Source: Cyanobacteria bacterium bin.51 | GTDB taxonomy: Bacteria; Cyanobacteriota; Cyanobacteriia; PCC-6307; Cyanobiaceae | NCBI GenBank assembly: GCA_013203655.1 | Contig: JABMPN010000089.1 | Coordinates: forward strand, 1-45,346 | Reading direction: 5' to 3' | Length of the DNA stretch: 45,346 nucleotides | In this document: positions 30,218 through 45,099 of the stretch, one piece after another | Layout: every line of letters starts with the position of its first letter | Position numbering within the stretch: the stretch's first letter is position 1 | Translations under genes and position numbers: made by a program | The notes under the pieces: model-generated | What the model saw: the letters and a program-made list of their open reading frames with translations, nothing else | Told to the model about the DNA's origin: nothing | Database searches by the model: none

Positions 30218-32840
<2,623 letters not shown>

Positions 32841-33005
32841 GGCGGCCTCCGGCCCGGGGCTGCGGCCTGAGGGTTGTGATCGACACAGAAACTAATCGAT
32901 AGCACAGCGCCGAAGAAAGATGCGGGGATATCTGAGCGGATCGGGATCAGCACTTCGGATGCGCAATGACGCTTGAGGCATCACTACTGCCCTGCCAGCT
33001 TCGGG

Positions 33006-33021
33006 TGTGAGCGCTGTCACG
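33006..33021. promoter_or_regulatory. CRP-family-like dyad
   Basis: TGTGA-GCGCTG-TCACG, 9/10 match to TGTGA-N6-TCACA. Confidence 0.45.
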
Positions 33022-33065
33022 GCGCGCTGTGGCGAGGAGCACATTTCCCCGTCGAACGGCACAGA

Positions 33066-33095
33066 CTTAGCCAGGTGTTAATCGGCTCTTGAGAT
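33066..33095 (+). promoter_or_regulatory. Candidate Pho box (three 8-mers, 3-nt spacers)
   Basis: CTTAGCCA-ggt-GTTAATCG-gct-CTTGAGAT; 18/24 match to the cyanobacterial PyTTAAPyPy(T/A) repeat; 55 nt before the start codon at 33151. Confidence 0.5.
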
Positions 33096-33150
33096 GTGGT
33101 GGCGGGATGTATGGATCAATAGAAGGTGAAGTCAACGCACTTTCTGGGCA

Positions 33151-41466: not shown

Positions 41467-42629
41467 ATACCCACCTGCGATTACTTCGCCTCCAGCTAAG
41501 CCGATGCCCGCGCCAGGTTCCTGACGGCGGCCGGCGCCGCTGGCGCTCGGCTAACGTCCCATCGCCTGCCCGGCCAGCTCGGTCCGGACGGCGAATTATT
41601 ATGCATAGATGTGGCCCTGCTGGCGGGGGAGGCCCCGCCGCGGGCGATGCTGCTGCTGATCTCCGGCACCCATGGGGTGGAGGGATTCTGCGGATCGGGA
41701 GTGCAGGTGAGCTATCTCACCGACCGCCTGCATGACGCCTTCCCGCCCGGCACCGCCACCCTGCTGATTTACGCCCTCAACCCTTACGGCTTCGCCTGGC
41801 GCCGCCGGGTGAACGAGGACAGCATCGATCGAAACCGCAACTTCCGCGATTTCAACGTGCCGTTGCCGGATGGCTCCGCCTAGGAGGCCGTGCACGACCT
41901 GCTTGTGCCTGCGGAGTGGGACGGTCCGGTCCGGGAGCAGGCCGATGCGGCGCTGCTGCAGCGCATCGCGGCCCATGGCATTCCCGCTTACCAGGCCCTG
42001 TTGCAGCGCGGCCAGTACACCCGCTCCACGGGGCTGTTTTATGGCGGCACCCAGCCGTGCTGGTCGAACCAGACGTTGCGCCAGCTGCTGCGTGAACACA
42101 TCCCAACCGGCCTGGCTCAGCTGGCGGTGCTCGACATCCACACTGGCCTCGGCCCGATGGGGTACGGCGAGCCGATCCATGCCGGCGACACGCCGGAGGG
42201 GTATGCGCGGGCGCTGTGCTGGTACGGCCCGGAGGTCACCCGCATGAGCGAGAACGAAGCGCCAGCCGCTCCGCTCGACCAGCTGGCCGCCGCATTGGCG
42301 AATCGTCCGGCCCTGCCGGTTGGCGGCCGTTCGGCCTCCGCGCCCATCTCGGGCGCCATGGTCGGGGCGTTCCGCGCCCTGGAGCCCGCCACCGAGGTCA
42401 CCTACCTGGCGCTGGAGTTCGGCACCTGCCCGATCCTGGAGGTGCTCGGCGCGCGTTGCGCGCCGACAGCTGGCTGCATGCCTTTCCCGGCCGCGACACC
42501 GTACATCGCGCGCCGATCCAGGCGCAGATGCAGTAGGCCTTCTACGTCGACACGCCGGCCTGGAAAACGGCGATGTATGGCCGCACGGCCGATTTCGTGC
42601 TGCGCGCGGGCCGGGGCCTGGCCGCCGGC
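41467..42629 (+). pseudogene. Degraded DUF2817 (M14-like) gene, paralog of 43966-45099
   Basis: Collinear with the intact copy but ATG>ATA start, in-frame TAA at 41497, TAG at 41881, a frameshift near 42448-42464 and TAG at 42534. Confidence 0.92.
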
Positions 42630-42826
42630 ATGGCCGCTGCCGCTGGCTTGCCTGCTGGCACGTCACGTGCCGTTACGTGCAATGCCCTGGCAGGAAGGAC
42701 AAAACCGCCGGGTCCGTGGTGAGGCCGATGCCCCTTGCCGCCGCAAGCCAGATGATGGTCATCAGCAACCACGGCCAGCCGAAAATTTCCATCAGACGGG
42801 GTAGATCAATGGCGCATGCCGGAACA

Positions 42827-43965: not shown

Positions 43966-45099
43966 ATGCCCACTTGCGATTTCTTCGCGCCCGGTTACGC
44001 CAGCGCCCGCGAGAAGTTCCTGTCGGCGGCTGAAGCCGCCGGGGCCAAGCTCAGCGCCCATGCCCTGCCGGAGCAGCGGGGGCCTGAGGGTGAGCCCTTG
44101 TGCATCGACGTCGCCGTTCTTGGTGCGGAGCAGCCACCGGAGGCGATGCTGCTGCTGATCTCCGGAACCCACGGGGTGGAAGGCCGCTGCGGTTCCGGCA
44201 TCCAGGTGGGATATTGCGTCGATCAACTGCACAGCAACCTGCCGCCGGGTACCGCCACGCTGTTGATCCATGCCCTCAATCCCTACGGGTTCGCCTGGCA
44301 CCGGCGGGTCAACGAGGACAACATCGATCTGAATCGCAACTTCCGCGACTTCAGTGCTCCATTGCCGGATTGCTCCGCCTACGAGGCGATCCATGACTGC
44401 CTGGTCCCGGAGTCTTGGGACGGTCACAGCCGGCTGGAGGCGGACAGGGAGCTGCAGCGCCGCATCGTGGCCTGCGGGATCCCTGCCTATCAGGCGGTGC
44501 TGCAACGCGGCCAGTACACCCGGCCGACGGGGCTGTTCTATGGCGGTACACAGGCCTGCTGGTCGAACAGGATGCTCCGGCGTCTTCTGCGCGAACACAT
44601 CCCCGCCAGCACCACACGCCTGGCGGTGCTCGACATCCACACCGGTCTGGGCCCCCTTGGCTACGGCGAACCGATCTATGCCCAGGATTCAGTGGAGGGC
44701 CTGGAGCGGGCGCGGCGCTGGTTCGGGCCGGAGGTGACAAGCATCGCCAGCGGCCCGGGGGACGCCGGCCCACAGAGCGGCGATGTGGGGGAGGCGCGCT
44801 CGGCGTCCGCGGCCGTTTCCGGGGCTTTGGTGACGGCCTTCCAGGAGCTGGATCAGGCCCTCGAGGTGACCTACCTGGCGCTCGAATTCGGCACCCGCCC
44901 GATCCTCGATGTGCTCGGGGCCCTGCGGGCCGACAGCTGGCTGCACGCCATCCCCGATCGGGTCACGCCCCACCGCGGGCCGATTCAGAACCAGATGCAG
45001 GAGGCCTTCCATGTGGACACTCCCGGCTGGAAGGCCGCGGTCTACGGGCGAACGGCCGACTTCGTGCTGCGGGCCGGTCGGGGGCTGGCAGAGGGTTGA
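43966..45099 (+). CDS. DUF2817 family protein (M14 carboxypeptidase-like), intact copy
   Basis: 377 aa; LLISGTHGVEGRCGSGIQVGY, LIHALNPYGFAWHRRVNEDNIDLNRNFRDF, LAVLDIHTGLGPLGYGE, LALEFGTRP. Confidence 0.9.
   Translation: MPTCDFFAPGYASAREKFLSAAEAAGAKLSAHALPEQRGPEGEPLCIDVAVLGAEQPPEAMLLLISGTHGVEGRCGSGIQVGYCVDQLHSNLPPGTATLLIHALNPYGFAWHRRVNEDNIDLNRNFRDFSAPLPDCSAYEAIHDCLVPESWDGHSRLEADRELQRRIVACGIPAYQAVLQRGQYTRPTGLFYGGTQACWSNRMLRRLLREHIPASTTRLAVLDIHTGLGPLGYGEPIYAQDSVEGLERARRWFGPEVTSIASGPGDAGPQSGDVGEARSASAAVSGALVTAFQELDQALEVTYLALEFGTRPILDVLGALRADSWLHAIPDRVTPHRGPIQNQMQEAFHVDTPGWKAAVYGRTADFVLRAGRGLAEG

Follow-up and report, generated by a model that had tools for sequence, protein, structure and literature searches.

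A putative PhoB- and CRP-family-controlled phosphate-starvation promoter upstream of a PhoA-type phosphatase gene in a cyanobacterial genome bin

Results

The phosphatase gene

The window, i.e., the whole stretch of 45,346 nucleotides analyzed here, carries an open reading frame whose ATG start codon holds a position conserved in orthologs and which is separated from ligA, its upstream neighbor on the same strand, by an intergenic stretch of 310 bp (Table 1). Pfam and NCBIfam models place a phytase-like domain (residues 290-689) as an interruption of a choice-of-anchor I domain, followed by a core of the 5'-nucleotidase family and an RTX-like C-terminus. Residues 609-1615 share 53% identity with a 1398-aa protein of Synechocystis salina (L054), and the motifs DQExG, GNHE, GGSNT and NTDGxY are common to both proteins. 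By this homology and these motifs, the catalytic core is a metallophosphatase/5'-nucleotidase of the PhoA (sll0654) type in its predicted activity. A reading made from the sequence alone (hereafter the sequence-only reading) had called the gene phosphatase/phytase-like; the first term holds for the core, and the second fits only the inserted domain. A classification as a new phytase was rejected, as the catalytic half matches PhoA (sll0654-type), which is a known SphR target.

The site upstream of the S. salina gene, CTTAACCTtttCATAGCCTaatCATAAGTT, is nearly identical to the published site of sll0654 (phoA) in Synechocystis (PMC1906773). Together with the homology to L054, this places the window gene in a known family of SphR-target phosphatases. 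Levels of the sll0654 protein increase when phosphate is low (PMC3600050). The window phosphatase is probably secreted, and its RTX-like end suggests type I export.

Table 1. Genes and promoter elements of the locus in window coordinates.
Feature	Position	Strand	Remarks
ligA	30672..32840	+	upstream neighbor
Dyad A, GTG-N8-CAC	33007..33020		core of TGTGA-N6-TCACG (33006-33021); -70 from Pho box 2; ends kept in L039
Dyad B, GTG-N8-CAC	33029..33042		-48 from Pho box 2; ends kept in L039
Pho box 1, CTTAGCCA	33066..33073	+	matrix score 5.2; identical in L039
Pho box 2, GTTAATCG	33077..33084	+	matrix score 6.9; GTTAAC-type box at the aligned position in orthologs
Pho box 3, CTTGAGAT	33088..33095	+	matrix score 2.6; identical in L039
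TATGGA, proposed -10	33110..33115	+	unsupported; not conserved in L039
Phosphatase, PhoA/sll0654-type, 1812 aa	33151..38589	+	choice-of-anchor I, phytase-like insert, 5'-nucleotidase core, RTX-like C-terminus
DUF4114 gene, 844 aa	38679..41213		next gene
DUF2817 ORF	41890..42804	+	matches family middle only
DUF2817 ORF	43966..45099	+

The Pho array

Upstream of the gene lie three 8-bp repeats with a period of 11 bp, separated by GGT (boxes 1 and 2) and GCT (boxes 2 and 3). At least two are YTTAAYYW-like 8-mers at 3-bp spacing, and the third is weak. When the sequence was re-read, the letters, spacings and coordinates of the repeats, of the TGTGA-N6-TCACG dyad and of TATGGA were as the sequence-only reading had given them, and so was the match of the third repeat at 5/8 positions.

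That reading had proposed matrix scoring and an alignment of orthologous upstream regions as checks, and the repeats passed both. We used a single-box weight matrix made from 26 cyanobacterial three-box sites (Table 1 of Su et al., 2007; PMC1906773), summing three boxes at the 11-bp period. Positions 33066-33095 rank first among the 90,634 positions on both strands of the window, scoring 14.7 vs. 8.55 for the runner-up. Most orthologous promoters likewise have Pho arrays in the same register, whose distance to the start codon is comparable (taken from box 2, mostly -66 to -89), and in most orthologs no other site of the whole locus scores higher. The Cyanobium-type array reads CTTCAACA-3-ATTTGTCA-3-CTTAACCT, with the third box the strongest. 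The position of the weak window box 3 thus holds the strongest box (CTTAACC) in orthologs, while the first and second boxes are better in the window and in the orthologous locus L039 than in the Cyanobium-type orthologs. Window and L039 are identical at 24/24 Pho-box bases, compared with 34/54 of the non-element bases of 33000-33065.

Counts of loose consensus patterns were set aside as too weak in either direction. In the window, the two-box Pho consensus with three mismatches allowed gave 2 matches vs. 0.8 expected, which is not significant, and TGTGAN6TCACA with one mismatch gave 1 vs. 0.73, so that dyad A by itself is no rarer than expected by chance. A loose Pho-pattern count in the window's own bin (44 matches vs. 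94 in the reversed control) was uninformative. The suggestion that TATGGA serves as the -10 element found no support: besides its lack of conservation in L039, no sigma-70-type promoter match was found.

Conserved in-register boxes, membership in a family with a published SphR site, and phoB in all relatives checked all speak for the proposed PhoB control of a phosphorus-scavenging enzyme, and PhoB/SphR very likely controls this promoter.

Two phased dyads upstream of the Pho boxes

The sequence-only reading had described a single CRP-like dyad. We find two, the second (dyad B) lying within TGTGGCGAGGAGCACA at 33028-33043 with its center 22 bp downstream of that of dyad A. Both have the form GT-N10-AC (GTG-N8-CAC), which is an NtcA-like geometry. 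A classical cAMP-CRP operator, TGTGAN6TCACA with conserved arms spaced by 6 bp, was rejected: GTGA-N6-TCAC is kept in L039 only, and across the orthologs GT-N10-AC alone is common.

Of 17 non-redundant orthologous promoters (sharing <72% identity), 14 have GT-N10-AC dyads, and these keep an 11-bp phase with the Pho boxes. Relative to Pho box 2, they lie at -26/-27, -48/-49 and -70/-72, whereas the Cyanobium-type group has them at -59 to -63; no dyads were found in the ortholog promoters L026, L041 and L042. Among the 272 inverted-dinucleotide dyads compared in the 17 promoters, GT-N10-AC is the most over-represented (20 vs. 4.7 expected), and with one promoter per lineage the count is 15 vs. 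4.2 expected. In dinucleotide shuffles of the latter sample, 3 of 2000 equaled this excess for any dyad and, again for any dyad, 0 of 2000 reached the phased count of 14, although shared ancestry of the orthologs inflates all these statistics and makes the figures optimistic. Between the window and L039, the end bases of the dyads are kept at 12/12 positions and the spacer bases at 10/16. As the ends persist while the spacers change, the dyads appear to be under selection.

The own genome (2.08 Mb) and the L039 genome each contain a single copy of the strict tandem GTG-N8-CAC-N8-GTG-N8-CAC, in both cases in this promoter. The tandem was found at six places in the other 21 genomes and at three in the reversed control. 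In the homologous promoters of other cyanobacteria (n = 54), dyads are rare (10) and unphased, and pstS promoters carry Pho boxes without phased dyads.

The CRP-like dyad is more than chance, even if it had been misdescribed. Of the suggested CRP-family input, the family assignment and the enriched, phased dyads stand, whereas the single classical CRP site gives way to two sites of the NtcA-like GT-N10-AC form. On the strength of these patterns, some CRP-family regulator probably acts at the dyads.

Candidate regulators

Orthologs of ptrA and phoB, mostly adjacent, are present in 22/22 relatives searched, including all three same-genus genomes, with the ptrA orthologs named from family, neighborhood and literature and not via direct comparison with the WH8102 protein. 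In G091, ptrA, phoB and phoR form one cluster. Pho-box arrays precede ptrA in nearly all relatives. In the own bin, which is 80.7% complete, ptrA, phoB and phoR were not found; the simplest explanation, though unproven, is that a contig is missing. The same bin does encode three CRP-family proteins of similar recognition helix, one of which is NtcA. The helices of PtrA (TRVTVTR) and NtcA (TRVTITR) closely resemble each other.

In marine Synechococcus WH8102, PtrA is described as a regulator of the CRP family that is controlled by PhoBR and upregulates phosphatases (PMC11098088). As ptrA and phoB occur in all 22 relatives and Pho boxes precede ptrA, PtrA is the best candidate for the dyads, and we put its specific action there at about an even chance. 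The dual control by PhoB and CRP/PtrA in the sequence-only reading is supported for PhoB and in part for a CRP-family input, with PtrA as its best candidate.

A combined search for Pho boxes and tandem dyads in 400 genomes returned four phosphatase-family hits and one unrelated hit vs. 8 in the reversed control, and no PtrA target outside the phosphatase family. One of these hits (L243; G267 contig 65) is a degenerate duplicate promoter with a Pho pair and tandem dyads. This copy precedes a 109-aa remnant related to the N-terminus of the phosphatase.

The ptrA promoters of relatives (L189-L210) have up to four tandem Pho-like boxes. Most of them also contain a GTN-N8-TAC that possibly overlaps the -10, and autoregulation is possible. 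Because this conserved motif may share its right half with the -10, it was set aside as evidence for a PtrA autoregulatory site.

Discussion

The model that we lean towards is a phosphate-starvation promoter with PhoB on the repeats and a CRP-superfamily protein, most likely PtrA, on the dyads. Under low phosphate, PhoR (SphS) would phosphorylate PhoB (SphR), which would then bind the three 11-bp repeats and recruit RNA polymerase. A CRP-superfamily dimer would occupy each dyad on the same helical face as the Pho boxes. PtrA is the most likely of such proteins, being encoded with phoB in relatives and itself placed behind Pho boxes. PhoB would thus act on PtrA, and PhoB and PtrA together on the phosphatase, in a coherent feed-forward loop. 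For this promoter we infer binding, the identity of the second regulator, the direction of its effect, the hierarchy and the transcription start site.

It is possible, at slightly less than even chance, that the tandem dyads are the PtrA operator, that PtrA and PhoB sit on one DNA face at multiples of 11 bp, and that this forms a coherent feed-forward switch restricted to the picocyanobacterial family, with PtrA, itself induced by PhoB, allowing high expression of the phosphatase only when starvation is prolonged. The pstS boxes without phased dyads fit a division in which uptake would be under PhoB only and phosphatases under both PhoB and PtrA.

The dyads might be inherited or chance matches next to real Pho boxes, with no regulator of their own. 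That dyad A taken singly is no rarer than chance would agree with this, as would the three ortholog promoters without dyads and the fact that orthologs are not independent samples. However, both the enrichment and the phase survive one-per-lineage sampling, and the dyad ends are kept in full against 10/16 in the spacers, so that a PhoB-only promoter is unlikely. Since the dyads keep to the 11-bp phase of the Pho boxes and ptrA can be preceded by arrays of four boxes, they might be considered additional PhoB contacts extending the array. This is very improbable: the dyads lack a TTAAC-like core and are built as inverted repeats, and no such phasing is seen next to the strong Pho boxes of pstS genes or those of other cyanobacteria.

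Binding by NtcA or another CRP-family protein would couple the phosphatase to nitrogen or carbon status without a PtrA cascade. The dyads have the geometry of GTAN8TAC, the NtcA consensus (PMC3898017), a perfect GTA-N8-TAC is found in L037, and the own bin offers NtcA and two further CRP-family proteins and no detected ptrA. The letters differ, however: both window dyads are GTG/CAC and depart from the consensus at both variable positions, and GTAN8TAC was rejected as the operator type for them. Additionally, canonical NtcA sites center near -41.5, whereas the window dyads lie well upstream, and although NtcA is universal in cyanobacteria (PMC3898017), the homologous promoters outside the family have no phased dyads. 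We therefore regard this coupling as quite unlikely, and PhoB with a CRP-superfamily protein, most likely PtrA, as the better reading.

Pho boxes before PhoA-type genes are already known. Like the window, the SphR promoter of Synechocystis sp. PCC 6803 phoA (sll0654) has a set of three 8-bp repeats spaced 3 bp apart, and the phosphatase genes that follow are homologous (PMC1906773). The S. salina homolog differs in having no phased GT-N10-AC dyads before its Pho boxes, which lie further from the start (-174). The two-level PhoBR-PtrA response of WH8102 resembles what is seen in the window's relatives in that ptrA accompanies phoB and phoR, Pho boxes precede ptrA, and phosphatases are the target class (PMC11098088). 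No published PtrA operator or motif was found in the literature searched, and the window offers two phased candidate dyads. The NtcA operator shares the GT-N10-AC geometry, and PtrA has a similar recognition helix; the window dyads differ in their GTG/CAC letters, tandem arrangement at 22 bp, upstream position and phase with the Pho boxes. The E. coli ugp operon (PhoB and cAMP-CRP) also combines Pho boxes and a CRP-family site before a phosphorus-scavenging operon, but there the sites belong to two separate promoters (PMC4415409), while those of the window form one phased array.

With its dyads the window supplies a concrete and conserved PtrA operator candidate, of which no example was found in the literature searched. 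If it is real, the two-level picocyanobacterial phosphate response becomes testable by footprinting or promoter mutation, and the PtrA regulon becomes predictable from sequence.

Other features of the phosphatase and its neighborhood

The metallophosphatase motifs of the phosphatase (residues about 972-990 and 1212-1226) read HLSDQEAG and AGGSNTRL and are altered from the canonical D-x-H and GGHTH, respectively. Relatives including the Synechocystis homolog share these altered motifs, and the Pfam Metallophos model has no match to the window phosphatase; the alteration is therefore a family feature. In the viral contigs searched, no relative was found.

The next gene (DUF4114) matches the C-terminal module of the phosphatase weakly (30% over about 120 aa). 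It has a 69% homolog beside the ortholog in L039 and is possibly co-transcribed with the phosphatase. Further downstream, the first of two DUF2817 ORFs covers only positions 134-262 of the profile and may be a partial or broken copy. Orthologs including L044 and L045 share residues 1-1607 of the phosphatase, and in some the C-terminus is a different and longer one (2057-2528 aa). Further large ORFs nearby also contain the 200-aa module of the C-terminal end, and the pattern of the RTX-like end is one of predicted module swapping among orthologs and nearby ORFs.
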